DNA from: Albula goreensis
Taxonomy: Eukaryota; Chordata; Actinopteri; Albuliformes; Albulidae
Length of the DNA stretch: 64,000 nucleotides
Direction: 5' to 3'
Assembly (NCBI GenBank): GCA_022829145.1
Contig: CM040763.1
Span: 1,275,342-1,339,341 of the forward strand
This document shows positions 24,805 to 60,772 of the stretch, piece by piece. A model generated the notes under the pieces. That model did no database searches. It saw only the letters and a program-made list of their open reading frames with translations, and was not told the DNA's origin. Positions within the stretch are counted from its first letter, which is position 1, and each line of letters begins with the position of its first letter. Made by a program: the position numbers and the translations under genes.

Positions 24805-24812
24805 CACTCTCA

Positions 24813-24851
<39 letters not shown>

Positions 24852-24870
24852 CCCACACACACACACACGC
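24805..24870. repeat. CA microsatellite
   Basis: Interrupted (CA)n with two tacccac-type interruptions. Confidence 0.9.
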
Positions 24871-25244: not shown

Positions 25245-25345
25245 GCCCTTTTGTTCCTCTCTCAATAGGCATTGACCTCTGACCCCTGGAGGTCACGGCC
25301 TTTGTTCTTATCCCAACAGGCAGTGACCCTGGAGGTCCCAGCGGT
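25245..25345. promoter_or_regulatory. Tandemly duplicated SOX/nuclear-receptor motif block
   Basis: Two diverged copies of a roughly 45-55 bp block each contain a SOX/TCF-like site (cttttgttcc, then CCTTTGTTC at 25299-25307), a run ending (a)taggca or acaggca, a TGACC half-site and ctggaggtc. The first copy carries a DR1-type element, TGACCT-C-TGACCC (25273-25285). The arrangement suggests a duplicated enhancer core. Confidence 0.4.
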
Positions 25346-28024: not shown

Positions 28025-28220
28025 TTTGCAATACTGTGTGTGTGTGTGCACAAGTACAAGCATGCATTCACAGGCTTGTTTTGTGTGAGCGTGTGCACAA
28101 ATGTGTGCTGGCTTGTGCGTTTTGTGTGCTTGTGCAGGCGTGTGTTTGCTTGTGTGTGCATGCATGTGCATGCATGCTTTTGATGGAGCGTGTGTGAATG
28201 TTTGCGTGCATCGTGCATGT
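28025..28220. repeat. TG-rich degenerate microsatellite
   Basis: Degenerate (TG)n with gtgcatgcatg and gcttgtg interruptions over about 190 bp. Confidence 0.8.
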
Positions 28221-28274
28221 GTCTCTGTATTAGAGAAATATTCCTCACATCAGTAGATTTTTCTGTTGGTTATA

Positions 28275-28634
28275 CGAAGTGGCGCGATGTGACGTAGCAA
28301 AGCCGCACATGACAAGCGCCAAAGCAGACGCTCCACCAACTTCTGTCCCCAAGACAGCACTCAGTGTCAAAGAGAACAAGACAAAAAAAAAAAAAAAGAA
28401 GTATTTCTCTTTTACTTCTTTTAATTGCGTCCATTTCTACTTTTCCGTTATTTGTTTCCCACTGCGTCGATGGCGGATTTTTCGGGCAAGATTGGGAGTG
28501 TTTGTGGGAGTGTGAGGGGAGAGGGGAAAGAGCTGGGCGTTTTGCAGGCGGGAAGAGCGGGAGAGCCGGCAGGGAACGAGTGCGCTGTGTCACTTCTCTG
28601 CGCGTGCACCGTGCCGCGGACGGAATACGTGCTT

Positions 28635-28672
<38 letters not shown>

Positions 28673-28730
28673 AGAGAGAGAGAGCATGGCGGCAGCCATA
28701 TTGGATACTTTAATTACACTATTCCTTCCA
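28275..28730. promoter_or_regulatory. CpG-rich region with GA tract and YY1-like sites
   Basis: CpG-rich DNA (ggcgcgatgtgacgtagc, ggcgggaagagcgggagag, gtgccgcggacgg) includes a CRE-like tgacgta, a GGCGGGAA E2F/SP-type site and an (AG)n tract at 28638-28684. It ends in gcatggcggcagccatattgg, which carries YY1-type ATGGCGGC and CCAT cores. This composition fits a promoter or boundary element. Confidence 0.4.
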
Positions 28731-29194
28731 TAAACAAAGAAAGAGAGACGGAGAGAAAGACACATAGATCAGTCTGAAATCACATAAAAAAATAAAAGAA
28801 CAAAACACAAATGTTTCCCCCACCTTTTCTTGTTTTTGCATGTAGCCTCTTACGTATCCCTTCTTTTCTTGGAAGCTTTTAAAACACAGATTTTTCTCCC
28901 CAAAAAAAGAAAAGGATAAATAGGTTAGCTAACGTTAGTCCTGGATTTGAGTTTTTAGATAAAGGAGGTTTTTTTTGGTTCCTTTCTCGTTTTCTCTTTT
29001 GTGTGGCGGCTACTTTGGGAAGGGAGGGTAAAGTTAGCGCTCTGCGCTCTCTCAGCCGTCTCTCTGAGCTCTCTGGAACTTCTGCCAAAAGAGGCAGGAA
29101 GTTGTTCTACAATAGCGTTACAGTAATCTGCCACAAAAGGAAAAAGCCAAATGTTGGTCACAGAGAGTGGAGAGTTGCAGAAGGGGAGGGTAGG
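28731..29194. other. Non-coding DNA
   Basis: AT-rich at first, then a GC-richer segment (29005-29100). No gene was recognised. Confidence 0.45.
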
Positions 29195-29206
29195 GGGTGT
29201 GTGTGT

Positions 29207-29245
<39 letters not shown>

Positions 29246-29290
29246 ATGGTTTACATTTGTGTCTGTGTGTTTGCACATTGTATTCATGTG
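29195..29290. repeat. GT microsatellite
   Basis: (GT)n, nearly pure from 29211 to 29243, with degenerate TG beyond. Confidence 0.9.
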
Positions 29291-29689
29291 TGTTTTTGTG
29301 CTTTGCGAGCCAGTATTTCTGCATGTGTATAATTTTATTTTTGTGTTTGCGTTAGTGTTAGTGTGTATGTTCTGCGTTTGTGTTTTCTGCTTTGAGGTGC
29401 TGTGCATGATCTCTGCACAGTCCTGTGAGCTGAGGGGGTCAGCTTCTCAGAAGTGCTCAGAGTACATCGGGTCTGAAAATGGCGGCCAGACAGCCATGTG
29501 GAGGGAGCAGGGCCTCCTCGCCGTGACTCACAGACCCATGTGTTTTATTCCTGCATTTTAAAATCTCTAGACTCTTGACGGGGGTGTTTGTGTGTGAGAG
29601 TGGGATCATACATTTCAAAAGTGTGTGTTTTTGTTATTGTCACCTCTGCAGACTCCCCTCGTGACGATTTTGATGGTGGGATGGCTGCC
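29291..29689. other. Non-coding DNA with a YY1-like site
   Basis: Contains aaaatggcggccagacagccatg near 29477, with YY1-type cores on both strands. No gene was recognised. Confidence 0.4.
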
Positions 29690-29935
29690 AGGCCAGCTGC
29701 TTCCTAAGCACAGGCTTAGCTACAGTGTCCTTCAGATTCAGAGTGACTTACACACAATTATTACACACTTTTTACAACTAGATAGTACCTGAAGCAATTC
29801 AGGTGAATTACCTTGCTCAAGAGTACCACAGTAATGCCCTACCTGGTAATTGTACTTGTAATTGATACTGTATCTACTACACTAACTTCTGAGCTACAAG
29901 CCCAGCTCCCTAACCATTACACTACACTGTAACCT
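29690..29935 (-). mobile_element. Decayed tRNA-related SINE
   Basis: Recognisable blocks in order are gtccttcagattcagagtgac-ttaca, then tgaagcaattcaggtgaatt, ccttgctcaagagtaccacag and taatgccctacc, then a decayed B-box region. It ends in gagctacaagcccagctccc and taaccattacactacactg. This is the body of a repeat family common in fish, on the minus strand. The B box itself is badly decayed. Confidence 0.75.
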
Positions 29936-30240
29936 CTGAACCTCTGCTACCCAAACCATTACACTACACTGCCCAGCTCCCCAGCTAACCATTACACTAC
30001 ACTGTAACCTCTGAGCTAACAATACTACACTGCCCAGCTCCCTAACCATTACACTACACTGTAACCTCTGAGCTCCCTAACAAGCCCAGCTCCCCAGCTC
30101 CCTAACCATTATACTGTAACACTGTAACCATTATACTGTGACCTCTGAGCTACAAAGCCCAGCTCCCTAACCATTATTGTAACCTCTGAGCTACACTGTA
30201 ACCTCCTCTGAGCTACAAGCTCCCTAACAGGCCCAGGGAG
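29880..30240. repeat. Tandem array derived from the SINE end
   Basis: The terminal SINE segment (ctccctaaccattacac, tacactgtaacctctgagc, tacaagcccag) is repeated about 7 times with variable truncations, so unit length varies. The array grows directly out of the SINE at 29690-29935. Confidence 0.8.
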
Positions 30241-31315
30241 CTTGCACTGTTCTGAGCTAGGCCCAGGGTTGCAGTTAGAGGGTTTGCTCATATATTTTAA
30301 GACACTTTCAGTGGGTAGACTCTGGAGTTTGTCTCTTAATTCCTGGGAGATGTTGCGAGGGTGTGTGTCTTTGAGGAGTGGAGGATCCGTCCTCTCGTTC
30401 TTCCACTGGCCCTCCTCCACTCCCTCCTTCACTCTCTCTTCCTCTACTCTTCGCTATGTCACTTACTCACTATTCTGCACTTCCTGTTTCATCATCAGCT
30501 CTCGCTCTCCGTCCATCTCTTGTCCTCTCTTACGCTCACACACTTTCTCTTTATTTTGCGTTCTCTCTTTAGGCCCTGATGAAGTGCAAGTGGGAGACGG
30601 AGAGAGAGAGATGGAGAGAGTGTGAGGGAGAGAGAGAGAGATGGAGTGATGGAAGGGGGAGGGAGAGAAGGAGAGAGAGAGAGAGATGGAGAAAGCTGTA
30701 GCCGTTTCCCCTCCTCTCCCCTCAGCCTACAGGCTCATCCAGAGGAGGAGGGCCATGTCTCTTTTTGCAGCTCGCTGCGTTTAACCCTCTGCCTGCAGCT
30801 GCCAGGAGCCCAGCACCTCAAGATACTGCAACAAGTCTCTTTTTTCACGAGGGTGGGGGGCATGTTTCCTCATTCTCTACCAGTCACTTTGGTGGAAAAA
30901 AAAAAACATCTGCATAATTTTTTCTGCTCTTGCCCTTCGTTGTTGACATGTCAATTATCAATTATGTTCCAATAAGACAGACATTTGTCTTTAATTATAC
31001 TATTTATATACTTTATAGCAGACGTTTAAATGTATGATTTGAATATTCTGATATTTTTTTGTATTTTAACCACCACCTCCCCCTGTAATGGGCTCTCTGC
31101 TGTCTGCGAGCCCCCCATGCCCCACCCACCGCCCCCCACACGCACCCCAAATCGTCCACCTCTTTTTGGGGGTCCCCAGAAAGGAGGGTGGCTCAGCTTT
31201 ATTGTTGTTTTGTTTGTTTTTTGGTGCCAAGGACGAAAATGGCCGAGTACTGAGAGGCAGTTCACACACATCTGAGTATGTGGATCTCTCCGTTTAAGAG
31301 CGCTATGGCCTCGCT
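30241..31315. other. Non-coding DNA with GA tract
   Basis: Includes a GA-rich tract (about 30595-30690) and a C-rich stretch (31070-31180). A good AG acceptor-like site (ctctctttag) ends at 30572, but no matching donor is clear. Confidence 0.45.
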
Positions 31316-31321
31316 CTGCTT

Positions 31322-31353
<32 letters not shown>

Positions 31354-31374
31354 AACCCCTCCCTCTGGCTCCCT

Positions 31375-31408
<34 letters not shown>

Positions 31409-31450
31409 AACCCCCTCCCTCTGCCTCCCTCCCTCTCTCTCTGATTGGTT
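31316..31450. repeat. CT polypyrimidine tract, two tandem blocks
   Basis: Two (CT)n blocks of about 25-30 bp, each followed by taacccc(c)tccctctg, form a near-duplicate of about 65 bp. They are mirror-symmetric and potentially triplex-forming. Confidence 0.9.
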
Positions 31451-31704
31451 GCCTCTCCTGACGGGGGGGAGTGGCCGGCTGCACTTTCTGGGACAGGTGC
31501 CAATTCCAAACAAAAGACGTAAAAAAGGCCAACGAGTGAAAAATGCACAGATTGAATTTTTTGGGGAGAAAAAAAAACTAAACAAAAAAATAGCAGAAGT
31601 ACACAGAAATGCACAGTCACATGTGGCGCTCATATATATGTGCTTTCAGAGTTCTCTCCTCTTCTCCTGCATGTTTGTGTTTAGCTTTTCGAAAATTATT
31701 TCCG
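31451..31704. other. Non-coding DNA between pyrimidine and purine tracts
   Basis: Short AT-rich segment with A runs. No gene was recognised. Confidence 0.4.
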
Positions 31705-31748
31705 GGGAAGAGAGCGAGAGAGAGAGGAGGGGAGGGAGGTGGAGTGCC

Positions 31749-31779
<31 letters not shown>

Positions 31780-31792
31780 TGGGGGGGGTAAG
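31705..31792. repeat. GA polypurine tract
   Basis: (AG)n with gggaggg interruptions, the reverse complement in kind of the CT tract about 300 bp upstream. Confidence 0.9.
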
Positions 31793-31929
31793 TTACTCTA
31801 CTTCTCAGCTCCCGGTGTAGCGTAGTGAAGGCATTTGAGTCGTTCGGGAGAGTGAGGGTGGGGAGATAGACTGTGTCTGTGTGTGTGTGTGTGTCTGTGT
31901 GTGTAGTGGGGGTTCCTTTTTCAAACTGT

Positions 31930-32372
31930 TGAATAATTCATGGCCCGAGCCACAGCTCAGAGGAGGAGGCTGAGAAGGAGCCGGGCGATGGTATTAGCAC
32001 GGCGCGGACACGCCGTTTGTCTGTTTGCTAACATTCCTCATTCAGAGGCACGTTAGCCAGCGGACGGGTGTAGCACGCGTCTCCCTGCCGCCCTTACAGG
32101 GCCCTGCTGTCCCACGGCTCTCGCCGGAGCCCCTAGCCCGGGCGATGGGCGGTTTCGGCGGGTGGGCTCTCAGCTCGGATTCGGGGGGCTGGTTGCTAAG
32201 GTAGAAGCCAGTCTCTCACTGCTGCCCGTCCTCTGTAACGGAGCGGGGAACCAGAGGGAGAGAGGGAGAGAGAGGGAGAGAGAGGGAGGGACAGGCCTTC
32301 CTTCCGTCCTCCTGCAGCTTCTACTCCTGCTCCGTTGGACCCACTACCTGCAGCTCCTGCTACACACTGCGT
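31930..32372 (+). promoter_or_regulatory. CpG-rich promoter and candidate first exon
   Basis: Dense CpGs (gcacggcgcggacacgccg, cacgcgtctccctgccgcc, gcccgggcgatgggcggttt) run to about 32180 and are followed by less CpG-rich sequence. The block ends in ACTGCGT followed by a consensus GTAAGT donor at 32373-32378. No TATA box is seen. This is a reasonable alternative first exon for the let-7a/let-7b host transcript, whose next candidate exon is at 39773. Confidence 0.4.
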
Positions 32373-32378
32373 GTAAGT

Positions 32379-32379
32379 G

Positions 32380-32412
<33 letters not shown>
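32379..32412. repeat. GT microsatellite
   Basis: About 33 bp of pure (TG)n immediately after the candidate splice donor. Confidence 0.9.
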
Positions 32413-32415
<3 letters not shown>

Positions 32416-34755
32416 ATGGAGTTATGGGTACCTCCTTTTACTGCAAATATTCATAAATGTAAATATGTACAATTTACTGCGTATGCTTTTATCAAAAACA
32501 AAAACATGACCACATGTAAAGTACATTTTTTTTACACAGAAGAGGAAAAACTTACAAGCATTAAATTGCGTGGAAAGGCAATCGTGTGTGTGTGAGTGTG
32601 TGTGTGAGTGTGTGTGCGCGCGCGAGTGTGCGCAGATACACACTTCTCTCAAAGGTAGTAAGATACGAGTTAATGTGTTAGTTCTGTAAATGGTAGACGC
32701 AGAGTGCAGTTGTCGTTACGCGGGCCGAGCCGTCCTGGTCCTGGCGCGGGTAAACGCGTTTGCCGCTATTTTAAGTTTTTCTCGGCTGTACTGATCCCCA
32801 CTGAAGTGTTGCCGTGCTGTAATTAGTAATTGGTGAAAGGAAGCGTAGTTCTGGAGGGACTTTGTGAGAATGATACCGTTTCGGGCCCGATGCCAGCCAA
32901 CTCCAGCAGGCCTGTACCGTCTTGTTTGAATACCGTGTTTTTTTGCGGGATTTTTTTTTTTGTTTTAAACACTGCACTGCAAAACTAATAAATGAATTAT
33001 CTTTGTGTTATTAAATTTGGGGAAAGTGTGCCCTGGAGGTTTGTGCTTGTTGGACGTTTTAGAGGCAGATATCTTTGGCTTTTCCAGTCCGCATGGCACT
33101 ACCAGTCAGCAGAATCTTTACTTCATATTTCAATAAGATAACTTGTTCCATATAGCAATGGATTATAATATGGTGCAGATATAATATTTAAGATACTTTT
33201 TGTGATTGTTTAAAACGATTCAACCATTTTCAGAATACAGCTTAATTGGTATATTACATTTTTGTGTATTATTGTGTAGTATGTAAAATGTAATTGTGTT
33301 ACATTGTAAAGTGTTTTAAAGCATAGCTGAAATACATATGGTGGCAGATTACTATTAAATTATTTTTGATGCAGGATTTTTAACTGCCTGACTAATGAAA
33401 AACATTTGAATGGATTAACAGTATGCTTGTTCTTGGTATTGGTCAAAATGTATTTTCAGCAATGGGATTTCTTGTTAAATTTAAAATATTACTGAAAAAA
33501 AATCACCATAGTTTTGTGTAAAAATGTACTTTGAAAGAGTAGATGACACATGAACCATAGTTAGAATTGCATTTTAAGGAGATTTTGTCTTTTAAATGCT
33601 AGAGTTTTAGTTCTGTTAACATAATTGCACCATCATCAACCGAGTAATACAAGACTTTCTCACCCATTAGTAATGAAGGGATTGGTTGATTTATTTCTGT
33701 TGTCGAATTGTGACAAGCGATCCACTTTTATGAAATGACATGTTTTCAATATTATTTAATTTTTTTAAAATTTAAATAATAAACATAGAACTCTATTTAA
33801 CAGTGGGTTACGTAGGCAAAGTCTGCTATTCCTGTAATACAACTCACTTGTACAGTAGCTTAAAATATTTTAGCTAGTACTTATAGTTTATTCATCCATA
33901 TGTGATTTTTTTATGGTCTATATGTGTGTAATAATACGATTGTGTTTTAGTTCGGAGGTTTTTTTGGATAGATCACTCAGTTATGGTCATGTACATTTAC
34001 TTCACTGTATGTTTATTGCTTTAAAAAAAAAAAAAAAAAAAAAACCCAGCCTTATATATTTCATGATTTTGGGGTTTTTGTATTTTTTCATTTCCCCTGG
34101 AAAACGCCCATTGACAAAGCGCTGTCTGGCGCTCGTTTTGTCATCGATATGAACATAAAGAGTGATTGGTGGATCTGCAGCACTTCAGGGGTGTATTGTG
34201 AAATGTGGACGGGTCGGTGCAGTCATGGTTTTCCGGGTCGTTCTCTTTGAGCTGTCTCATGCTCAGAGGAGGCTGTTATCCTGTGAGCGACTCGGGCATG
34301 TGTGTGGCTGGAGAAGGACACACGGGGTGGATCGGGGGGCGTGGGGGGCAGGGCACTACGCAGAGCGGCCTGGCGTTTCTGCATGGGACTGCACGGCCAC
34401 TGCTCCATCATGCCCTGAGCCACAGCGACCCTTTGGGGACATATTCTCACTCTCGTAACACACATATTTGCATGTTTATTTTCTTTTCTTTATAATTTTG
34501 ATCATCCATCTTTCCCCTTGAAATGTCTTAGAATAGTCTGCTGTCCTGATTTTGCTCTGTTTAAAGAGGAGGGCTTTTATTTTGGCCCTTCCAGGTTTTC
34601 TTACCTCAGCAGCACAATCATTTCCTCTACCGTTCTGCAAATGCTTCTCCTTCCTGAGCTCAATTAAATAAATCAAATAAATCAAACACAGGCATTACAA
34701 ACAGGGTAGCACAGTGTAGGGTGTTGTGCCCTTTATCGATTGCTCTCTATCACAG
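32413..34755. other. AT-rich non-coding DNA
   Basis: Mainly AT-rich with a TG/CG patch (32583-32640), a GC-rich patch (32700-32765) and a poly(A) run of about 22 at 34022-34043. Around 34107-34143 an imperfect inverted repeat (ttgacaaagcgc / gcgctcgttttgtcat) could form a small hairpin. No gene was recognised. Confidence 0.5.
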
Positions 34756-34851
34756 ATTCAGGAGTGTGCGCTGACGCACTCGCACCCCTACCAGTGCGGT
34801 CACGTTTGGGCGTGGACGCAGCTTTTCTCTGGGTGGAAGTGGCACCACCGA
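34756..34851 (+). ncRNA. Weak candidate exon (96 bp)
   Basis: A good acceptor (tcgattgctctctatcacag) precedes 34756. The nearest donor, CCGA followed by GTGAGA at 34852, is weak at positions -1 and -2. Possible host-transcript exon with no protein match. Confidence 0.2.
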
Positions 34852-35129
34852 GTGAGAGATTGCAGACACAATCTAAAATGGAGGTGGATGGGATATCCCA
34901 GAATGCTTAGCTCTCTCCACCGCCCTCCCTACGCCAAAACTCTTACCAAAATGTAATACATTTTCATATATTGTAAACACTTTGATTATTCTGTAAAAAT
35001 TTGCTGGCAATTTTATTTTATAATATACTGCAGTATCTTTTAACAGCTATAATTTGGCTGTATATTTTGTTGAAAGAAGTGTTGTTCTGATCTTACTGAT
35101 ATATTTTGTCAGTGCTTTTAAATATGTGT

Positions 35130-35310
35130 GATTTTCATCAAGGAAATGGGTAAAGGTGGCATGGCCTTTGACCCCGTATTGGGGCGGGAAAAACGCGGTG
35201 GCATTATAGACGAACACGCCAACGTCCAAAGTGGTTCACTCGGTCCTGGAAACAGCGGCGTTCGGGGACGTTTCAGACGCGCAAGATCGTATGTGGCGTC
35301 TCGCCACCCC
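35130..35310. promoter_or_regulatory. CpG-rich patch with CCAAT and E2F-type motifs
   Basis: Contains attgg at 35178-35182 directly followed by gggcgggaaaa (E2F/GC-box type, 35182-35192), a cctttgacccc half-site and many CpGs to 35305. Candidate promoter or enhancer. A 171-codon frame crossing it shows no domain. Confidence 0.35.
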
Positions 35311-35819
35311 AGACTGCCCCCAAAAAACAAACACTCACACAAACCCCTCACCCCAGAATGCCATTCCCACGCCCCTATGGGTGCCAGGGGAACCCCTCTT
35401 TTTACCGTTTTCTGTTGTTATTTTACTAAGATCCAAACACGCAAACACGTGTCCCGCAGGCCACCCCCTGTCCGCCAGCCTGTTTGCGCGTTTGCATCAA
35501 AATATGGTTTTGTAAAATTGTTGAATCACGCCTTAAAATTATACAGGATGATTGATTCAACATTAAAACAAAAACTTGTTTTATATTTTTTTTCTTGTTC
35601 TGAGGGAACGGGCAAATTTATAACCAAATTTATATCGCGTTAGATGACTGCTTGTATTATGTTTTCATTCAGTTAAATTAGCATTGTCATTTTTTTTTTT
35701 GCATCGTTTTCTCTCAGCTGATAATGGATATCTGGTGTTTTGTTTTTTTGAGTCATTTTCATAATGTCGGTGAAGTGGGTGATAATTTCAGGGAATGAAG
35801 CTGTAGATTTTGGTATCAG
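35311..35819. other. Non-coding DNA
   Basis: No gene, RNA or repeat was recognised apart from T-rich runs. Confidence 0.45.
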
Positions 35820-36070
35820 ACCGTCATGGGGGGCGGCCGCGCTCCGCACCCTCGATGGCGATCAAGCCGCATTCTCCCACAACGGCATCGCCATTTTCGT
35901 GTGTTCCCGTTTAAAAAAGATAAATACTTAAAAATTGAGTGGTGATTCACAGCGACGGGGGTACCAGAGCAGCCAATCACTGCGTATGAAAATAAAAACA
36001 AATCAACAACAATAAGAAATGGCGCTCATTTGCATCTCCAAATCCGTTACCATAACAACCGTTATAAAAC
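35820..36070. promoter_or_regulatory. CpG-rich patch with CCAAT, octamer and X-box-like motifs
   Basis: CpG-rich start (ggggggcggccgcgctccg), a CCAAT box (agccaatcac near 35971), a perfect octamer ATTTGCAT (36028-36035) and an RFX X-box-like GTTACCATAACAAC (36046-36059). This clustering is unusual for the surrounding AT-rich DNA and suggests a promoter or enhancer. Confidence 0.4.
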
Positions 36071-36175
36071 TAATACTGTCATGAAGGTGAGAGTTGGGCT
36101 GGAACGATTGTGTATACTTCTTTTTCTGAAGGTAGGGGAGACCCCAAAGTGAGTTGCATTTTTAGGGTGCAGCTG

Positions 36176-36178
36176 AAG

Positions 36179-36215
<37 letters not shown>

Positions 36216-36230
36216 GGTGGGGGTGGGGGT
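36176..36230 (+). repeat. GT microsatellite ending in a G-rich block
   Basis: (GT)n of about 34 bp runs into three G5 runs split by single Ts (36213-36229), a G-quadruplex-prone sequence. Confidence 0.9.
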
Positions 36231-37853
36231 ATGGTAGACTGACTATTGTGTTTGATATTCTAGTGCAACCCCAAAGTGGGTGTGAGCCATAATGGCCGGT
36301 CTGGGGGAATAGCCTGGGCTTTGTGATGTGTGGATGAAGAGTGCTGAAACAAAGACCCTGTCTGCTTGGGGGTTTGTGGGAAAATCCAACAGCATTTGTT
36401 TATTTCTGCAGCCCTTAAAGACTCAGACGTGGGTGAAAGCAAATAGACGTGGAAGACCGTGTGCATTATCAAGTTAGCAGACCAGATTAGGACTCTGCAG
36501 ATACGCTCTCCATCTGCCTCCACCCCTCTTTTTAAAAACACACCCGCATTCATCTACACCCATTCATCTGTGTGCCCGGCTGATCTCAGCCATTAAACAT
36601 AGTCATTTTCCAAAGAAAGTCATCTTGGCAAAAATATTATCCGGTAATGATATTTTACAATATTGGCACGCACACTGCAGAATACTCAGTGTTAAATCAA
36701 CTCTCAGGGTGTAAATTTTACACTCACACAGGCTGTTGGAGCCAGAAAAACAGGGCAGATTTTACCGAGTGCTCATGCGTGTGCCCTAGCTCCAGAGTGT
36801 GTGGGAGTCATGCGTGTGCTGCCTTTAAACAAGGTCAGAAAGTTAAAATTCATATTTCATAAATACTAATAAATGCTTAAACTGTGACACTGAAAATCAA
36901 AACATACTGTGTTTAAAATAAATCCTCAATTTTTTTTGGTGACCTTTCCCTTTATGTCAGAATTTTTTGATCTGTGCATTTGGAAACATTTACAGTAAAT
37001 TAATAAGAAACAAAAAGCAAATATAATGTTTAATGCACTATCTCTGATCTGAAACAAAAGGGGATTCATTTTTTTCATATTTAATTCATTTATAGTTCAT
37101 TCAAGAAACATGTCTCAGTTTCACAGCAACTCCTGCTGTTATTTTTAGATCTGAGTATTTTTCTATTATTTATAATTTATGTTTCATTTATAATTAAACT
37201 CATGACTGAGTTTGATTCTAGCAGCTGCAAAATGTTTTTCTGCGCAACAAAAAAAAAAAAATGTGGTGTGGTTTTTTTTTTTAAATAAACATTCATCCGT
37301 AAATATTTTTCTATTTATGTTTACCATAGAATACTTTTTTTAGCACGACATTCATATCAAAATCAAATAAAACATGCATGTGCCTTTTCTGTATTTCCAG
37401 TCTGTTGTCTTCTTGGCTTTATTTTAATGTGATGTAATGTCAGAATGTAGCGTAGTTGTTAACAGACAAAGTTTCCAAATGGCAGGGCCTGCCAGTCTGC
37501 TTTACAGTGTGTGGCAAAAGGCATTGATTGCATTAGGGATTTGCACTTTGGCTTTGAGGAAGCATGCAAAAACATTTTAACGAGAAGGGAAATGGGCTGT
37601 ACAGTATGAGCTGCCTAGAGTGTGTGTGTGTATGTATGTGTTTGCATGTGTTTGCACACACACATGCCTATTTGTGCATATGTTTTAATTAACTCCAAAC
37701 AAATATATGTCTGTTTTAGTTCAAACGCAACATGTAGTATGGGTTAACTAATTTGCTTTTGATCATATTTTGATCGGTTGCGAGTTACATGTATGCATGC
37801 GTGTGTATGTGTATGTTCGTGTTTCTGTGTGTGAAAGTGATTTTGTGTGAGCT

Positions 37854-37854
<1 letters not shown>
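36231..37854. other. AT-rich non-coding DNA
   Basis: AT-rich, with A/T homopolymers around 37249-37282 and degenerate TG around 37620-37675 and 37795-37850. No gene was recognised. Confidence 0.5.

Positions 37855-37930
<76 letters not shown>
37855..37930. repeat. Pure GT microsatellite
   Basis: 76 bp of uninterrupted (GT), 38 units, expected to be highly length-variable. Confidence 0.98.
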
Positions 37931-37932
<2 letters not shown>

Positions 37933-39455
37933 GAGAGTGAGAGTTAAGCCTCGCATGTCAGTCGTATCGTGTGAACGCTGTCGTTCTGCAGTGGATTCAG
38001 TTCTGTAATTAATCTGCCTTAGATTTTAATTGGATTCAGATTTCAATAGTACATGAACACATGGCGGGATCTGAAAGGGGCCTTTTCTGAGTGCTATATT
38101 GAATTATATATATATTAATTTTTTATAATTAGAGGCCTCAGGTTTTCATAAATGCATAAAACTAAATGGCATATTGCTGTGTAGCTGTTTTTATATCAGG
38201 TTTCTCCAAGTAAATCTTTCTGCTTATTCAGTTAAATGTGTTGGCAACCTAATTATAGTCCAGTTGTAATTTATTGTCACAAAGATTGTTTTTTGTGAGG
38301 GGTACATTTTGAGAGAGTAGCCTTTTTATAGAGAGCAGCATGGACCAGATTAGGTTTTAAAACCAGAACAGGCCTGAATTCTTTCACAATTAAAAGCCTA
38401 GCTCCCAAATATTTTTCTGTAAGCTTGTCTGTGTCATGCTTTCATTATCGACTATTATTAATATAATATATATTTAATTGTACAATAAATATATTTACTT
38501 GGTCAAAAATAAGTAAATAAATAAAGACATTTATATGTATATTTTATTTAAGCAATAAAATGTACAGTACAGATAAACTTAAATAAAATTAAAATGTATT
38601 CATTTTGTTCAGACCGTTCGTATTTTGTGAAAAAAAGAAGCATATTCATGTTAGAATATTACCAACAATCTCTACAGCAAAAAAAAAAATATTTCATTAC
38701 ACAACAGTGGGTGGCTGCGAATTTATTTTACTCCCAGCGAATGTATGTTTACTTCAGTTGGAGCATGGACTTGCTTATTTAATTTCAGTCATTTCTGTGT
38801 TTGCATTTTTTGGTAGTTAAATGCGGCGCTCGTTGGAGAGTGAGACGCAGCACAGTGAAGCAGTGGTTAACACAGTGATTTTGTGTTCGTGGCTTGGCAT
38901 CGCCGCATTTTGTGGACGTTTTGCCAACTTGTTTCTCCGGCTCTCTGTGTCTGTGGCGAGTTCGGTTTCATCGAGAGTCAAGTGGAAATTTTTCGAGGGC
39001 CAATCCTAAAGTATTTCTTCAATCCATCGATCCGTGCGTACAGCGAGAGATGAACTTTGATGCTGATTAATTATTCACACTGCCACAAAGTTTGTTTTGT
39101 TGAACTTTGTATGAATTTTAATGTGTTTAAATTTTATTCCGAAACAGTGTTTTTTTTTAATAATATCTAATAAACATTGATCAACAAATGAAGCAAAGCT
39201 AATTTCACTGAATGTTGTTGTGACGTCTAGTAACACAACAAATGGATTTTGCAGGAGTACTTTGTGCTTTTTACTACATGTGTAAATAACAACATGTGCA
39301 TGTGTTTAGGAATATGTATGTATATGCATACACAAATGTGTGTGTTTTTGATTCCATTTTCACGCTGTAAGAAACACACACACACATTCATGTACACACA
39401 AGTGTATGTCAGTGTGAGTGCGCACGTGTACACACCTGTGCATATGCTCATACCC

Positions 39456-39490
<35 letters not shown>

Positions 39491-39772
39491 TGGGACCTTC
39501 CTCTGATTGAAAGGGCATTATGGGTAATTCATTATAACCAATCAGGGCGGTCATTCTCGATGTGCCACACCCTTTCTGAGCAGTGCCAACAGTGTACATG
39601 AATGCCATTGTTAAACGAACAAGAGCAAACAGCTAACACATTCTAACACACTGCATGGGATTTCCTTCATATCATTAGTATTTTTATGATCAATTATTCT
39701 AAAAAAAAAAAAAAAAAAACTATATATATGTTTTTTGTTGTAATAACCAGATATTTAAATGCTGTCTTTCAG
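37931..39772. other. AT-rich non-coding DNA with CpG patch
   Basis: AT-rich apart from a CpG-richer patch at 38820-39005. TG/CA-rich stretches lie at 39290-39490 and a poly(A) run at 39702-39719. The last 25 bp form an acceptor tract. Confidence 0.5.
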
Positions 39773-39831
39773 GTCAATGTTACCTGCATCTGTGCAGCGA
39801 TAAAGAAAACACACACCCAGCTTAAATCCAG
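39773..39831 (+). ncRNA. Candidate internal exon of the let-7 host transcript (59 bp)
   Basis: A canonical acceptor (aaatgctgtctttcag) precedes position 39773, and the segment ends in ATCCAG followed by a GTATGT donor at 39832. Stops occur in two frames and no protein match is seen, so it fits a non-coding exon. It lies between the 32.4-kb donor and the 49.7-kb candidate exon on the same strand as let-7. Confidence 0.45.
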
Positions 39832-39837
39832 GTATGT

Positions 39838-42399
39838 TCACTGTTCTATATACACTTGACTTTTACCACTAACGGGGAAAAACACATTGGGATTGCAGTT
39901 ATGCTGGATTTCTGAGATCTGCAGCAGTTAAGTCAGAGCACTTCCCTTAATTTACAGAAACCCTTGATTTTACCTGTACCTGTATTTTAATTGAGTACTG
40001 ACATTACTTTGTCATTTCATTTTGACTTTGGAAGCTGATAATGAACAGGCATGAAGGCGGCCGTGGTTTATACATGTCGAAATGCACAAAAGTGAAAATG
40101 CATGAAACTACGCGTGTACATGTGTACTTTTTCGTGACCCGTATGCATCGTAGACATGAACTGATATCATATGCAGTGTTTGTTTAACTTTAAGATACAC
40201 TTTTGTAAATATTTATGGGCCTCGCGTCAACCGTGCATCTCTTTCTTCCAAATTCCAGCGTGTCCTGAGCACAGTCAGTCTTATTGGCTGTGTCTAGTGT
40301 TTCTTTTCTTTCATTTAAAATTCAACATTTTTAATGGACTCTTGTTGAAATTTTTAGGTAGTAAAAATGAGGAAATTCTGATGCTTACAGAGTCAGGATT
40401 TCAGGATTTTTTCAGTCCTGAGGTCAAAGAAAGAAACACTGAGTGTCATTTAATTTGGCTGAAGCTAAAAAAAAGACAGTAGCTCTGTAATCTGTTTACA
40501 CAAAAGCCAATTCATATGGGAATGTACAGACTTTAATAAAAAAAAAATATATAATAAATATGCAACAAGTTATATTAGATAATAAATATTGTACATACAA
40601 GCACACCCATTATACATGTGTACATATACGCAATACATAACTAAATATCTTTGGGGAAGTAGATTTTGTCACCTTCCTTTTTAATAAGAAAGCGTTTATT
40701 AATGTTACATGAATACATTATTGTTATTTTACATTGTGCTTCTAATTGTCTCAACCTTTTCAAGTGCTATTTCCTTGCTGAAAAAAAATATAAAGTAACT
40801 CATATGTTAAACTGTGTGTGTGTGTGTCTGCAGAACATGTAAATTATGATGCGTTTCATAGCTGAATCCTTTGTGGTTATTTGTCAGCACATTTTTGTGT
40901 GTTAATATAAAGCTTATATAACTGCCATTAAAATAAACTCCTCAGGAAATTGCAGGGTCTTCATAGCTGAGCATATTTTATTTCTGTCTTTGAATGCGCG
41001 TCGGTGCTGCAGTATCAGTCATGGAAATTTGGGTTTGCCCTGAGGATTCTGGGAGCTCTGTTGAATTGAGATGTACTGATTCGCAGTGGCCGTTTGAAGT
41101 TTAACGTCTTACCGCCGCGGCCCTGACACTGCAGCTTGGCCTGCAGAACTCTGGCGGGATCGCGGGCGAGTCTGGAGGAGGAGGAAGGGGGTGACGCGGA
41201 CGGCGGGGAGCTTATTTCTTTCACCTGAAAGGGCTGCAGTCGCGTGGGATCATGCGTTTCGCTCACGTGCTTCTCCTTAAATGGGCAGGTCAAGCATCAA
41301 ACAGGAAAGGAGCTGATCATACAGTGAGCAGCCATCGCTTTGACAGTCATGCTTAAATGAGAGCCAAAGAGCTGGAACCAGTGCACAGTCACTGAGCTTC
41401 TCACATGTTTACTGTTCCTCAGGACCTGCTCAGAAACCTGGAGCTGCTCACTCTCACTCTGCTCCTCAAACTACTCAAAAGCCTGTAGCTCCTCACTCAC
41501 CCTGAGTTTTTAAACGGCAGCAGAGATTGAATCTACATCATTCACACATTTGTTCAGAAACAAATTTGAATTTTTTCCCCCAACATTTTATTGTATTTTG
41601 GTCAACATAAGGTCACCCTTTTTGTCCTCATTGTAGAGAAGTTCCAGTAAATTAATGTGTAGATACTGTGAGGTTAGACGGTTTTGTTGTATAAGTGGGT
41701 GTTTTTCCTAACAGCCGAATGTCCAGTGTTGTTGCTGTAGTCTGTGTCGGGGCTGTGTTAGCTGGTGATTTTTGCGATTATTTGAGATTCTGTGCTGGTT
41801 TTAGTGCCATGCTGGGGGAGGAGAACTAACTGTTGTGGTGAAGACCTCGCTGTTTGTGGAAGTGAAAACGCTGACGAGAAGTGGGGACGTGGGGCAGATA
41901 AGAAGGAAGCAACTCTGATTGGTGGATCAAATCGCTGCTCGGCTGATGGGGAATAGTGGCCACTAGGGGTGGTTAGTTGAAGTGCATCCCCTCCTCTTTT
42001 CCCTTGGAATGTGGTGTATCACATTAGTCTTACTTGTAAAACTCCTAATTATGACATCATAACCAAGAGCCTGACTGTGTTCCAACACAAAAGCACCAAA
42101 ATCTCCCAGGGGTGTGCTCCACTGGTAAAACAATCGTTCTTTGCTTCTGACAGACATCTGATGAGTGGGGGAGGGGGGGTGTGCGTGTGTGTAAAGTCAT
42201 CTTCCCAGCCAATCACATCTATCCTCAAAAATACTACATTTGGATCTACAGAGCACCCGGAGTGCAAGTGTCTGTCATTTCATTCCGGAATGTCATGTGA
42301 GACGTTGTACAGCAGTGTCTGTCCTGTAACGCATGAATCTTCGACTGTATATTTCATAGCAAGCACAACTGCCTCTGCTCTGTGGATGACCGTGTAACC
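39838..42399. other. AT-rich non-coding DNA with CpG patch
   Basis: Mostly AT-rich. A CpG-rich patch lies at about 41105-41220 (taccgccgcggccctgac, gatcgcgggcgag, gacgcggacggcggg). No gene was recognised. Confidence 0.5.
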
Positions 42400-46624: not shown

Positions 46625-48019
46625 GAGGTATAAACCTGGCACTATCGCTCTGAACTGCACTGCTTTCACCAGGCTTACAGCAGAGAGGTATAAACCTGGC
46701 ACTATCGCTCTGAACTGCACTGCTTTCACCAGGCTTACAGCAGAGAGGTATAAACCTGGCACTATCGAACTCTGAACTGCACTGCTTTCACCAGGCTTAC
46801 AGCAGAGAGGTATAAACCTGGCACTATCGCTCTGAACTGCACTGCTTTCACCAGGCTTACAGCAGAGAGGTATAAACCTGGCACTATCACTCTGAACTGC
46901 ACTGCTTTCACCAGGCTTACAGCAGAGAGTATAAACCTGGCACTATCACTCTGAACTGCACTGCTTTCACCAGGCTTACAGCAGAGAGGTATAAACCTGG
47001 CACTATCACTCTGAACTGCACTGCTTTCACCAGGCTTACAGCAGAGAGGTATAAACCTGGCACTATCACTCTGAACTGCACTGCTTTCACCAGGCTTACA
47101 GTAGAGAGGTATAAACCTGGCACTATCAATCTGAACCCCACTGCTTTCACCAGGCTTACAGCAGAGAGGTATAAACCTGGCACTATCGCTCTGAACTGCA
47201 CTGCTTTCACCAGGCTTACAGCAGAGAGGTATAAACCTGGCACTATCACTCTGAACCCCACTGCTTTCACCAGGCTCATAGCAGAGAGGTATAAACCTGG
47301 CACTATCACTCTGAACTGCACTGCTTTCACCAGGCTTACAGCAGAGAGGTATAAACCTGGCACTATCACTCTGAACTGCACTGCTTTCACCAGGCTTACA
47401 GCAGAGAGGTATAAACGTGGCACTATCACTCTGAACTGCACTGCTTTCACCAGGCTTACAGCAGAGAGGTATAAACCTGGCACTATCACTCTGAACTGCA
47501 CTGCTTTCACCAGGCTTACAGCAGAGAGGTATAAACCTGGCACTATCACTCTGAACTGCACTGATTTCACCAGGCTTACAGCAGAGAGGTATAAACCTGG
47601 CACTATCACTCTGAACTGCACTGCTTTCACCAGGCTTACAGCAGAGAGGTATAAACCTGGCACTATCGCTCTGAACTGCACTGCTTTCACCAGGCTTACA
47701 GCAGAGAGGTATAAACCTGGCACTATCGCTCTGAACTGCACTGCTTTCACCAGGCTTACAGCAGAGAGGTATAAACCTGGCACTATCGCTCTGAACTGCA
47801 CTGCTTTCACCAGGCTTACAGCAGAGAGGTATAAACCTGGCACTATCACTCTGAACTGCACTGCTTTCACCAGGCTTACAGCAGAGAGGTATAAACCTGG
47901 CACTATCACTCTGAACTGCACTGCTTTCACCAGGCTTACAGCAGAGAGGTATAAACCTGCACTATCACTCTGAACTGCACTGCTTTCACCAGGCTTACAG
48001 CAGAGAGGTATAAACCTGG
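46625..48019. repeat. 60-bp minisatellite, about 23 copies
   Basis: Near-identical 60-bp units each contain gaggtataaacctggcac, ctctgaactgcactgcttt and caccaggcttacagcag. Most differences are single bases (for example atcact/atcgct, aactgca/aacccca). Small length changes occur near 46770, 46927 and 47958. Because 60 is divisible by three, the minus strand has a 445-codon open frame with a 20-residue period, which is not evidence of a gene. Confidence 0.98.
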
Positions 48020-50934: not shown

Positions 50935-51395
50935 ACCTCCAGGACTGGAGTTAAACCTGCAGACGCTGCGGCCCTCCAGGACTGGAGTTAAACCTGCAGA
51001 CACTGCGGCCCTCCAGGACTGGAGTTAAACCTGCAGACACTGTGGCCCTCCAGGACTGGAGTTAAACCTGCAGACACTGCGGCCCTCCAGGACTGGAGTT
51101 AAACCTGCAGACACTGCGGCCCTCCAGGACTGGAGTTAAACCTGCAGACACTGCAGCCCTCCAGGACTGGAGTTAAACCTGCAGACACTGTGGCCTCCAG
51201 GACTGGAGTTAAACCTGCAGACACTGCAGCCCTCCAGGACTGGAGTTAAACCTGCAGACACTGCAGCCCTCCAGTACTGGAGTTAAACCTACAGACACTG
51301 CGGTCCTCCAGGACTGGAGTTAAACCTACAGACACTGTCCGGTCCTCCAGGACTGGAGTTAAACCTACAGACACTGTCCCCTACAGGACTGGATG
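50935..51395. repeat. 37-bp minisatellite, about 12 copies
   Basis: The unit contains ccctccaggactggagttaa followed by acctgcagacactgcgg. Variants accumulate toward the 3' end (cctacag, ctgtccggtcc). The same unit in the same orientation recurs between let-7a and let-7b at 55770. Confidence 0.97.
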
Positions 51396-52800: not shown

Positions 52801-55281
52801 CTGGGGTGATCTGATGGTAAATAGATCACTTTGAAGACCACTGACTCCAGAACAGCTCTTCTCATTCTGCCCATGCCAGCTCCATGACCCGGAAGTGATC
52901 TTTTTGTGATTTCGGATTGGAGACGCCAATACAAAGCAACTATTCAGACCTGCTAAAACCCCTGGTTGTGCTTCTGTGATAAATGTAAACACAGACGATC
53001 TTTTCTTGGCCAACTGAATCCACCCCCATTAAACTGAGGAGACCAATAAGCTTACAGACAGCCAATGCCAAAAAAGTGAATGGATGTTTTCCAGAATCGT
53101 GGTTAGAGACTGAGCGTATGTAGACGGGACTAGCATCCTGAGAGGTGTTCTGTGTAACCATGGCGTTGCAGTATCCATTGGATACTGGAATCAGTGACTG
53201 GGAGAATGATTACCGTTGGGATTGTGGCGGTATATGGGGCCGTTACCGAGGTGACGGGATTCCCCATAAAACGGCCACATCAAGGCCCGGGTGAGCGGCG
53301 CTGGCAGACTGTCTGGGGAGAGCCATTGTGTTAGTCACCTTTATGGGTCAGCCCTCGGTAAACCACAGCACACAGAGTCACAACCCTGACCACAAGCTCC
53401 ACTGCTCAGACTGTGTGTGTGTGTGTGTGTGTGTGTCAGAATTACTGCTGCACCATGCCTGTACACACAAACCTGAGCTTGAAACGGAGAAAGTATTTTA
53501 TATTTTGGGAATGTTTGTGGGTACTTGTGTTTATTGGTTTATGTGTGTGTGCAGACTTGTGTGTGACCGTATATATAAAGGTACTCATGTTTGGTGGTTT
53601 GTGTGCATGGGAGTGTGTAGATATATTTATGGCCTTTTCTTTCCACTGTACATTCTCTGTCTCCCTCTCCTCCTCCTCTCTCTCTCCCTCGCTTGTGTCA
53701 TAAACGCTCTCAGAGTCCCTTACATGGGCAAAAAACTTTCCATTATACATTTTTCTCCTAATTAATGGATGTGAAGGTAAGGTAAACAGAAGGGATGGAT
53801 TCCTGTGCCAGAGTAACTCATTGTTGTCTTTTTCTGGGGGTTTCCTGGGTGCCGGCTGCACAACTCATTCATTTTGGCATAACTGCCTGACTGGGTGTTT
53901 TGTGCATTCAGAAAGAAAAGCTATTAAAGTGTCTTTAATGGCCTTTTTGGAGTGGAAAATAAGGTATTGACATAAGGAGCACTCAACTCCCAAAATGTAA
54001 AAATGAATGGCTGAAAGAGAAGCAGTCTCTCCCAGCCTACCGCGAGCCACAGGGGAGGACTGGGGTGTGGCTGGCGGAGAGACAGGGACAGCTCACCTGG
54101 GCAGCTGTATACAGGTACGCGCTGTGCCAGGTAACCTGTACCTCATTCACATGGCCGTACCTGTAAACAAGCATCCCATGAATAATGTAGAGAAAGAGAG
54201 AGAGAGAGGGAGGGAGGCACGGACACAGAGAAAGTGGGAGGCAGAGAAATAACCTTATTGTGTAGGGAATGTTTGCTTATCTTCAGGTCTCCCTTTGGTC
54301 AGCGTGAATGTTAAGTCTCTAATAGCATGTTTTAGATGTTGTTTTTTCCTTGTTTAGTAATTTGCAGCAGCAGTACAAAAACAAGGCGATTAGACATTTC
54401 TCACTCCTACACACACACCATTCTGATCTCTGTCTCACAAGTGTTTTTTCGTTTCCTTGGAAAGTGGAGTTTGTTTTGTTTGTGTGTCTGTAATAAAGAG
54501 ATTTTAACCAGCTCACACCGCCCTGTTCTTTCCCTGCCTTGCTGTGGGACTCACAGCTGCACCATGAACAGGTGGTGTTCACACCTGGAGTCACCTGAAG
54601 GCCTTGTCTACAGGTACTGAAGGTGTTATAACCTATCTCCTGTCTCTCCACACAGTTTCCAATCTGAACCAGTGACCACAGGGCCAAGGCCAGACCCTTG
54701 GGGCACCCTTTTCGAGAGGAAAACCCAGCTGTTCGGATGGTGAGAATGTTCCGGGTGTGCGGCCAGTTCCAGACCTATCAACCATCCAATCTACAGTAGA
54801 GATGCATACAGTAACACAGTGGTGTCAATCTTTGAGGGTGTTCAGGAGTACAGAAAGTAGCAGGTGCAGGTCAGGCAAGTGGATGTAAAGAGGACTATAG
54901 AGATTCTCAACAGCCAAGATCATCACACATAAGAAACTTTTAACTTGAGAAAGGGAGAGCCAGACATAAGACACTTTGAGGAAGCCGTAACACTCACCTA
55001 AACCTCCCTGTTCACTTGAGTCTGTTTTAGTCCTGAGTAAAATTATCTGGGCAAACTTCCCCTTTATGACTAACCCTGCGTTTGATCTTCACAGATGGTA
55101 AATAAGATGAAAATTGGGCACCTCTTCCTCCCTCTACTGCCACCAGGTGAACAACTCTCTTATCACCTTGGAAACATGGCCAGTCCTCTGTGTGTTTTGG
55201 TCATGTGTGCAGGGTCTTTTCTTCCTTACAGAAAATGTTTCCCATCTGAACGGAAGGGAGAACGCAAGAAGAGAGACTGTC
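52801..55281. other. Non-coding DNA, presumptive pri-let-7 5' region
   Basis: Includes a short GT run (53411-53437), a GA-rich tract (54190-54235) and an AATAAA near 54492. A good AG acceptor-like site (gtttgatcttcacag) ends at 55094. No open frame of a known family is present. It would be transcribed if the 51.7-kb promoter is used. Confidence 0.45.
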
Positions 55282-55366
55282 CTTTGGGGTGAGGTAGTAG
55301 GTTGTATAGTTTTAGGGTTACACCCTTCCTGTCAGATAACTATACAACTTACTGTCTTTCCTGAAG
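55282..55366 (+). ncRNA. let-7a: let-7a microRNA precursor
   Basis: The 5p arm at 55290-55311 is identical to mature let-7a as I know it, with seed GAGGTAG and 3' part ending tatagtt. The 3p arm at 55340-55361 (starting ctatacaactta) pairs with it across a 28-nt loop, and the lower stem continues with cttt/gaag pairing. let-7 microRNAs silence LIN28, HMGA2, RAS and other targets in the cytoplasm to promote differentiation. The loop lacks an obvious LIN28 cold-shock-domain motif (GNGAY) and a GGAG zinc-knuckle motif. It is paired with let-7b 798 bp downstream. By gene order this is the let-7a-3-type copy. Confidence 0.97.
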
Positions 55367-55569
55367 TGGCTGTGATGTCATCGAGGGTCGTCAGTATTGC
55401 CACGGTTACAGAACATGAGGTTGCTGTTGTGTATTCTTCTAAGGGCAGAGGTTCTGGTCCTTGAGACCCACTGAGCTCTTCTGGTTTATGAACTTTAAAA
55501 TCCAACAACCGGTTTAGATATCAAAGAAACCAGGTGAGTTAACAGTTTAATTGCCTGTTTTAAGTGATC

Positions 55570-55575
55570 AATAAA
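55570..55575 (+). terminator. AATAAA poly(A) signal candidate between the two let-7 hairpins
   Basis: AATAAA is followed immediately by GT-rich gtgatgtgtgag, the layout of a cleavage signal with a downstream element. It lies 209 bp after let-7a and before let-7b. Use of this site would produce transcripts with let-7a only. Hexamers are common by chance. Confidence 0.3.
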
Positions 55576-55769
55576 GTGATGTGTGAGAAGGAAACCCAGG
55601 AAACGCTGAGATCACCAGGACTGGAGTTGGGGATACAATTATCCATTGGACTGTCTCTCTACCAATGGGCTGCTCCAACGATAGTAGAGAGAGGGTCTTT
55701 GAGCAGTCTTGTAAACAAGGTGTGTGAATTTCAAGGACTGAAATACACCGGAAACAAGCCAACACTGCC

Positions 55770-55985
55770 CCCTACAGGACTGGAGTTAAACCTGCAGACA
55801 CTGCGGCCCTCCAGGACTGGAGTTAAACCTGCAGACACTGCGGTCCTGCAGGACTGGAGTTAAACCTGCAGACACTGTGGCCCTGCAGGACTGGAGTTAA
55901 ACCTGCAGACACTGTGGCCCTCCAGGACTGGAGTTAAACCTGCAGACACTGCGGCCCTCCAGGACTGGAGTTAAACCTGCAGAAA
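55770..55985. repeat. 37-bp minisatellite between let-7a and let-7b, about 5.8 copies
   Basis: Same unit and orientation as the array at 50935-51395 (ggactggagttaaacctgc, agacactgcggccctcc). Copies are nearly identical, with one-base variants (ctgcag for ctccag). It occupies about a quarter of the spacer between the two microRNAs. Confidence 0.97.
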
Positions 55986-56080
55986 CCACAGAGCTAGAGA
56001 AACAGTACAGCAGGTCCTCAGGTGTGTTGGACAGGGCAGACTAATCGGGCTCTTCGCCGCTCGGCTCTCTCTGATGTTCG

Positions 56081-56168
56081 TACAGGATGAGGTAGTAGGT
56101 TGTGTGGTTTCAGGGTAGTGATTTTGCCCCTTCTGCAGATAACTATACAACCTACTGCCTTCCCTGTA
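56081..56168 (+). ncRNA. let-7b: let-7b microRNA precursor
   Basis: The 5p arm at 56088-56109 carries seed GAGGTAG and the let-7b-specific gtgtggtt 3' end. The 3p arm at 56143-56164 (ctatacaacctactgc...) matches let-7b-3p. The lower stem is closed by TACAGG (56081-56086) with CCTGTA (56163-56168). The 33-nt loop contains gtgat, fitting the LIN28 cold-shock-domain motif GNGAY, unlike the let-7a loop. Same strand as let-7a, consistent with one primary transcript. Confidence 0.97.
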
Positions 56169-56627
56169 GGACAGCAGTACAGCTCCTCCCCAGCAGCTGA
56201 GCTTTCTCTATATAATACAACCCGGTTCAGCAGTATCTCTTTCTGGATCACAGGGATTAACGGGTGTGTTTATTCCATGCATGTAACGTGAGTTTACAAC
56301 TTGCACAATGCATTATCCTATGTCACTCAACTGGATTAATCGTGGTCTTCGGTGTGAAATGAGCTACTTTGCCTTTATTTCATAGAAATCATATAATAAA
56401 AATATTTTTTCATAAAGGTGTTTTGTGGCGCCTGTTATTTCAGTTCACTTATATTATTTGTGCCTCTGTGCTCTTCAGTTCCCTTTTTGTATGTGAGTGT
56501 GTAGGTGTGTTTGAGTCTGTGTGTGTGTCCCTGCATAGGCGCGTCTGTGTGCATTTATGCGAGTGTGTGTATCTGTGAAACGGTCCGTGTATGTGTGAGA
56601 GTATACATGTCTGTGTGTTTGATTCAT

Positions 56628-59640: not shown

Positions 59641-60420
59641 CTTGGTTTTATTTGGGTTCCACTGCAGTGAAAAATCATCTCAATAGAATGCATGCTCCCA
59701 TACTTTTATCCCGCGATTTTGCAGGATTCTGCAAGAAGAGAAATAAACATTGATGGGCCTGTTGACTCATGCGCTTCTCGTCCTGCCACGTCTGCTGGAT
59801 CTGGCTGCTGCATTTTTGCCAGTGAGCTGAGCAAATTACTCCAAAATTCTGGTAAATAGTATTTTGACAGCTTTCTTGACCTTAACGGGAAAATGGACTC
59901 GGAGGACAAGATTATAACCTCGGCGAAACCGCCGTTCGACAGGAACGCCTAGCCGGGGCTCCTCCAGCAGCTCCCCCTGTCATAACGGCCTCCTTTCCCT
60001 CCGTGAGGAGAGAACCGGCCCAATTTTTGACCAAAAACAAATAAATACAGCGAAAAAAAGGAACGTTGCATCAGATGGATTGGTCATGGGTTTGAAACGC
60101 CCTCCTGTATCATCCTGAGATTATTCTTGAAGCTTTGCTGTCATTTTTTCCATTTTGCTTTACTTGAGGAAATGACCATTTTGAGTGTGAACTGATGAAC
60201 GAATTAAAATTTTTGGACAAGTCAGCACTGCCAAACTCTGAGACGTACTCTACATATAAAACAACTGCCCATGGCTAATTCTGCAGAATCCCACAGCAGA
60301 GCGGTAGTGTGAGGAGACAGAACACCTAAGCCAATGAGACACCACCTTCAGAAATCAGACTGCATCACTGGTCCTGAGGGAAGTCAGGAAATGCAGTGTG
60401 GTTTCTTTGTTAGCCTCCCT
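59641..60420. other. Non-coding DNA
   Basis: A CpG-richer patch lies at 59915-60020. No gene was recognised. Confidence 0.45.
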
Positions 60421-60580
60421 GGCTGTAAGGAGTTAATTAACCAGATAATTAATGAGAAGTGATCTTAGTGGTGCACAATGAACACAGCTCTGTCATTTGT
60501 TCTCCTGTGGAGAACATGGCTGACCTTTGACCTGGCATTCTCAGAAGTCAGAGGTAAAAGATGACCTCTGACCCTAAAGT
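60421..60580. promoter_or_regulatory. Candidate enhancer with three DR1 nuclear-receptor sites and homeodomain/HNF1-like sites
   Basis: TGACCT-T-TGACCT (60521-60533) is a consensus DR1, bound by HNF4 or PPAR:RXR. AAGTCA-G-AGGTAA (60545-60557) is a degenerate DR1 in the opposite orientation. TGACCT-C-TGACCC (60562-60574) is a near-perfect DR1. Upstream, gttaattaacc (60432-60442) and ataattaat (60445-60453) resemble HNF1 half-site/homeodomain sites. It lies 4.4 kb downstream of let-7b, where ppara would be the expected next gene. Confidence 0.5.
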
Positions 60581-60772
60581 CTTCTTCGGCCACTTGCATG
60601 GGGAATAATGAATGCTGTGGGAGTGTTTTAACTTGCAGCCTCATAAGGTGGATTCAGTCAACCCCGCTCACCCGTGAAGGGAAGGAAAACCAGCCAATTA
60701 CACCATGACTGACACCATCATCACGACGATGGGAGACAGAAATAATGTCTTCAACACTGCATGTCCCTGTCC

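Follow-up and report, generated by a model that had tools for sequence, protein, structure and literature searches.

A 54-bp segment at positions 60521-60574 of the window (the whole 64-kb stretch of DNA analysed, C23:1275342-1339341) carries three DR1 motifs, in the order TGACCTTTGACCT, AAGTCAGAGGTAA and TGACCTCTGACCC, and lies between let-7b and wnt7b. We tentatively read it as a nuclear-receptor response-element cluster and a candidate distal element of this interval, an assignment in which our confidence falls somewhat below even. The block is plausible as a DR1 element of a known kind; since wnt7b, and not ppara, is the gene that follows, this is probably an ordinary regulatory switch that was at first assigned to the wrong target.

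The DR1 cluster

A motif scan found pairs of AGGTCA-like half-sites, in one orientation and separated by a 1-bp spacer, at 60521, 60545 and 60562:

60521-60533, minus strand: DR1 site 1, TGACCTTTGACCT (minus-strand reading AGGTCAAAGGTCA); no mismatches to the consensus AGGTCANAGGTCA
60545-60557, plus strand: DR1 site 2, AAGTCAGAGGTAA; two mismatches, the weakest of the three
60562-60574, minus strand: DR1 site 3, TGACCTCTGACCC (minus-strand reading GGGTCAGAGGTCA); one mismatch

The first-pass annotation had described one consensus, one near-perfect and one degenerate inverted DR1 within 54 bp, and this description is borne out. Site 1 is the sole perfect DR1 of the window. The centres of sites 1 and 3, whose flanks differ, are 41 bp apart, or ~3.9 helical turns at 10.5 bp per turn, and the two sites are therefore probably presented on one face of the helix. 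A consensus DR1 is bound by HNF4, NR2F (COUP-TF), RXR homodimers, PPAR:RXR and TR2/TR4, and by itself points to neither HNF4 nor PPAR in particular.

Chance expectation and genome-wide frequency

Allowing up to two mismatches, the window contains 13 DR1 matches, four of which (30005, 30062, 30139 and 30180) fall within or just past a tandem repeat at 29954-30129. The corresponding mean for 400 simulated windows was 6.2, using a first-order Markov model fitted per kb that is gentler than real DNA; a triple of such matches within 54 bp arose in none of the 400, and two DR1s with at most one mismatch within 54 bp in four of them. Under this model, chance alone does not explain the triple. Real sequence is more uneven than the model, as illustrated by an own-genome sample of 306,574 bases (36 non-overlapping records, without repeat masking), which held two further places with three DR1s (two or fewer mismatches) in ~70 bp:

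L044:3328-3354: DR1 triple, overlapping array
L047:7021-7088: DR1 triple, tandem repeat

Across the 932-Mb genome, the exact pair TGACCTTTGACCT-N1..31-TGACCTCTGACC occurs three times, and only in the copy belonging to the window are the two sites separate; the backwards control of this pair has no occurrence genome-wide. A looser same-orientation pair, TGACCTNTGACC-N8..38-TGACCTNTGACC, gave 62 rows that correspond to 38 places, of which 25 may be called dispersed, this figure being an upper bound obtained by removing, by eye, 10 multi-row places and three contiguous heptamer arrays. Genome-wide, the same pattern read backwards returned no rows, a control with DR2 spacing four rows at two places (backwards form, two rows), and a control with the shuffled half-site CTGACT eight rows at one place (backwards form, 12 rows). 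Moreover, in 262,343 bases of the 36 non-overlapping own-genome records, with tandem repeats masked, AGGTCA repeats with at most one mismatch numbered 10 at spacing 1 and between 0 and 4 at spacings 0 and 2-10; among 108 CpG-free anagrams in the same bases, the DR1 half-site ranked first at this stringency, but only 13th when two mismatches were allowed. Because the motifs are good and clustered beyond the Markov control, and DR1-spaced pairs exceed the spacing and shuffled controls genome-wide, the earlier designation of the segment as a nuclear-receptor element is a fair reading.

The excess of DR1 pairs need not mean function, because the pairs are enriched near contig ends, which are a repeat-rich setting. 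Under 2 Mb from the left end of a contig lie 15 of the 38 places and seven of the 25 dispersed ones, where ~5% would be expected, in a post hoc test that was conceived after the list had been seen, considers left ends only and assumes 25 chromosome-size contigs. The window itself is situated at 1.34 Mb on its contig and contains 72 tandem-repeat rows, some of them overlapping. The excess may reflect a sequence habit of chromosome ends, and not selection.

Gene order around the cluster

The neighbouring genes were located as follows, the ppara search using a human PPARA query:

55284-55364, plus strand: let-7 precursor, first of a pair (Rfam RF00027, 76.2 bits)
56082-56167, plus strand: let-7 precursor, second of the pair, let-7b (Rfam RF00027, 84.1 bits)
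72979-73050, 83741-83968, 95902-96177 and 100418-100894 (extended window coordinates), plus strand: four coding exons of wnt7b
C23:1214312-1214464 and C23:1221094-1221162, minus strand: ppara DNA-binding-domain exons

The second let-7 precursor ends 4.35 kb upstream of the cluster, and the next gene after the cluster is wnt7b, with its ATG 12.4 kb downstream and its exons 2 and 3 re-found in a second search; the cluster thus falls within the 16.8 kb that separate let-7b from the wnt7b start codon. It had been supposed that ppara would follow let-7b, and this has to be abandoned: the exons at 72979-100894 are those of wnt7b, and a search of 144 kb, comprising the window and the 80 kb after it, found no ppara match at E <= 0.001. 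Instead, 54 kb separate the window start from the nearer ppara exon, which lies to its left on the minus strand; this exon is across let-7 from the cluster, at a distance of 115 kb. The exon at C23:1214312-1214464 shows 87.5% identity over 48 residues, and the adjacent 7.5 kb (L046) reads N; the ligand-binding exons were not found on C23 and may sit within this gap. A separate DR1 pair, at C23:1170155-1170186, stands 44 kb beyond the closest of the ppara exons located, farther from the window than these exons.

The duplicate locus on C25

A second let-7 pair is present at C25:22829922-22831139 on the minus strand, together with a second wnt7b on the plus strand (exons 2 and 3 at 22915657 and 22928707) and, at 20840405-20856114 of the same contig, ppara. 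Such a set of genes, with a let-7 pair, ppara and wnt7b each present on both C23 and C25, would fit a bony fish. On C25, let-7 and wnt7b point apart, whereas on C23 they point in the same direction; therefore, one of the two chromosomes carries the let-7 block in reversed orientation with respect to wnt7b. Which arrangement is ancestral rests on the mammalian order and orientation, by which the C23 block would be the turned one.

All 11 matches between C23 and C25 at E < 0.001 in the window interval 24.3-41.4 kb share one orientation, as do three of four weaker matches extending to 55 kb, some of them out of order. Strong matches span both let-7 precursors, and between 56.2 and 73 kb there are none save weak ones at 69.7-69.9 kb. 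Collinear segments (24339-41435 and 55186-56230 of the window) are kept in C25:22740001-22860000, the best having 87% identity over 108 bp at 29075-29182, and those retained upstream of let-7 are candidates for the let-7 host-gene promoter or enhancers. A lone one-mismatch DR1 at 25273-25285 also falls among the retained segments, the DR1 itself not being preserved in the alignment.

No copy of the cluster was found around the C25 let-7 pair in C25:22740001-22860000 (10,000 of the 120,000 bases being N), nor in C25:22886001-22896000 (L047). A comparison of positions 56.2-73 kb with C25 likewise gave nothing at the cluster, and only two weak matches, at one place away from it (69735-69903). In all, 130 kb of C25 were covered, 10 kb of them N; beyond 22860000, the coverage amounts to 10 of the ~56 kb that remain of the let-7-wnt7b interval, so that the result would be equally compatible with loss, turnover or a missed copy.

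Sequence around the cluster

Three further features lie in or close to the cluster:

60432-60455: AT-rich homeodomain-like stretch with two TAATTA cores; the lone match in the window
60498-60516: perfect 8-bp inverted repeat, TGTTCTCC-tgt-GGAGAACA, just upstream of the DR1 cluster
60547-60572: perfect 9-bp inverted repeat, GTCAGAGGT / ACCTCTGAC, with an 8-nt loop; made by sites 2 and 3

The first-pass annotation had reported HNF1/homeodomain-like sites upstream of the cluster. Its homeodomain component stands, with TAATTA cores at 60434 and 60446 and GTTAATTAAC at 60432, but the HNF1 component does not. The HNF1 dimer consensus is a GTTAATNATTAAC-like 13-mer; GTTAATNATTAAC has no match in 60432-60455 at three or fewer mismatches, and the palindrome present there is one of 10 bp with overlapping half-sites. 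The repeat at 60498-60516 comprises two AGAACA half-sites of steroid-receptor type that face outward; a glucocorticoid response element, for which the consensus is AGAACAnnnTGTTCT, was rejected, there being no match at three or fewer mismatches in 60300-60700.

The inverted repeat at 60547-60572 is predicted to fold into a hairpin on either strand, and the stretch 60490-60580, picked after the repeats had been seen, folds better than shuffled sequences with z-scores of -2.98 and -3.36 for the two strands, values for which the two perfect inverted repeats are responsible. In its own genome, the 161-bp block 60420-60580 has no match other than itself at E <= 0.001, and it was accordingly rejected as a copy of an interspersed repeat. 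In a 7.8-kb DNA search, CA repeats dominated the output (40 of 1007 candidates scored); among the matches listed, only the self-match covers the block.

Possible function and alternative explanations

In the cluster, two strong sites share an orientation and are spaced by about four helical turns, and a weak site of opposite orientation separates them. Most likely, the DR1-binding dimers (HNF4, NR2F/COUP-TF, or RXR with PPAR or RAR) would compete for these sites, and the bound dimers might set the level of a neighbouring transcript, either the let-7a/b primary transcript or wnt7b, presumably in an epithelium that expresses such receptors. On the gene order, let-7 or wnt7b are likelier targets than ppara; control of ppara across 115 kb is possible, but lacks positional support. 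Among the matches listed in a search of the open-licence literature, none described a DR1 element in the let-7-wnt7b interval of a fish.

Related arrangements are described in mammals. For the mouse Wnt7b/Mirlet7c-2/b/Ppara region, PMC7960620 gives several predicted super-enhancers with targets assigned by nearness, those of kidney and liver being tentatively assigned to Ppara. That region and the fish locus have in common the three genes and a non-coding interval in which candidate enhancers abound, whereas on C23 the let-7 block is turned, with the 3' side of let-7b toward wnt7b, in a comparison made at the level of genes. Similarly, PMC3123655 tables human let-7a-3~let-7b with WNT7B among microRNAs under predicted long-range developmental regulation; the let-7 pair is tied to this gene as at the fish locus, although that listing concerns conserved elements and bivalent promoters, in contrast to the DR1 sites described here.

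The most serious competitor to a regulatory function, which we consider possible though doubtful, is that the cluster is by-product DNA, a neutral accident of repeat-rich chromosome-end sequence that is bound weakly or never. Being a heptamer in two copies, a DR1 might readily form in minisatellite-dense sequence, and the window is rich in tandem repeats; 13 of the 38 genome-wide places are obvious tandem arrays, the window shares with the end-biased places its closeness to a contig left end, the readable parts of the paralogous C25 region hold no copy, and the two other triples in the own-genome sample are an overlapping array and a tandem repeat. Plain slippage, however, poorly accounts for the 38 places, because heptamer patterns of the same composition but a different order are rarer (the reversed pattern and the CTGACT controls above), and the differing flanks of sites 1 and 3 and the single-copy nature of the block at E <= 0.001 also tell against it. 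A precedent for receptor sites in repeat DNA is provided by HNF4, a DR1-type receptor whose sites are spread by, and abundant in, Alu repeats, according to PMC3252374; the fish block differs in being single-copy, and is no copy of an interspersed repeat.

The earlier proposal that the cluster is a hepatic or fasting-responsive enhancer of ppara, with HNF4 input and PPAR autoregulation, now appears unlikely. A DR1 in the human PPARA promoter is bound by HNF4. According to PMC3692471, glucocorticoids, HNF4 and PPARalpha itself regulate PPARalpha expression, with PPARalpha ligands acting via a PPRE or DR1 motif, and the promoter DR1 is described there with reference to Pineda Torra 2002 and the rat P2 promoter. 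The DR1 half-site arrangement is common to that element and ours, and the mouse kidney and liver super-enhancers, the presence of ppara on the same contig at 115 kb and the further DR1 pair on the other side of that gene would all be in keeping with the proposal. Unlike the promoter element, the fish cluster is 115 kb from ppara, beyond let-7 and beside wnt7b, and has two strong tandem DR1s; ppara lies across let-7 and on the other strand, let-7b (4.4 kb) and the wnt7b ATG (12.4 kb) are far closer, and both the HNF1 dimer consensus and a canonical glucocorticoid response element are wanting. A role in RNA, with the inverted repeats forming hairpins in a let-7 host transcript and the resemblance to DR1 being incidental, is highly improbable: 60490-60580 does beat its shuffles on both strands by virtue of the two perfect repeats, but the z-scores are modest and the stretch was chosen post hoc, no Rfam family reaches its gathering score there, and the perfect DR1, site 1, is outside the hairpin arms and would go unexplained.

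Activity of the DR1 element that we favour would tie DR1 receptors to wnt7b and let-7 in a fish, and would provide a case of a regulatory block whose arrangement has changed between two duplicate chromosomes. A more ambitious scenario, which we regard as decidedly unlikely, is that inversion of the let-7 block brought the downstream side of let-7b and the DR1 cluster beside wnt7b, thereby placing wnt7b and let-7 under lipid- or retinoid-sensing nuclear receptors, and that the cluster is one of ~25 dispersed DR1 pairs, biased toward chromosome ends, that form a class of receptor sites. At present, the main value of the analysis is the corrected target assignment, with wnt7b as the neighbour and ppara excluded as such.

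Other features of the region

A second DR1 array, GGGTCAGAGGTCAAAGCCCAGAGGTCA, occurs ~26 kb downstream of the final coding exon of wnt7b; it is the overlapping array at L044:3328-3354 (C23:1402669-1402695; 127328 in extended coordinates). Upstream of the cluster, at 60350-60406, an imperfect 16-nt inverted repeat is predicted to fold as a hairpin, and the surrounding 91 nt have z-scores of -1.96 on the plus strand and -2.51 on the minus strand. A 60-bp minisatellite occupies 46625-48019 (23 copies, 97% matches), and a 37-bp minisatellite unit is seen twice, at 50936-51393 and at 55762-55983, the latter between the two let-7 precursors.
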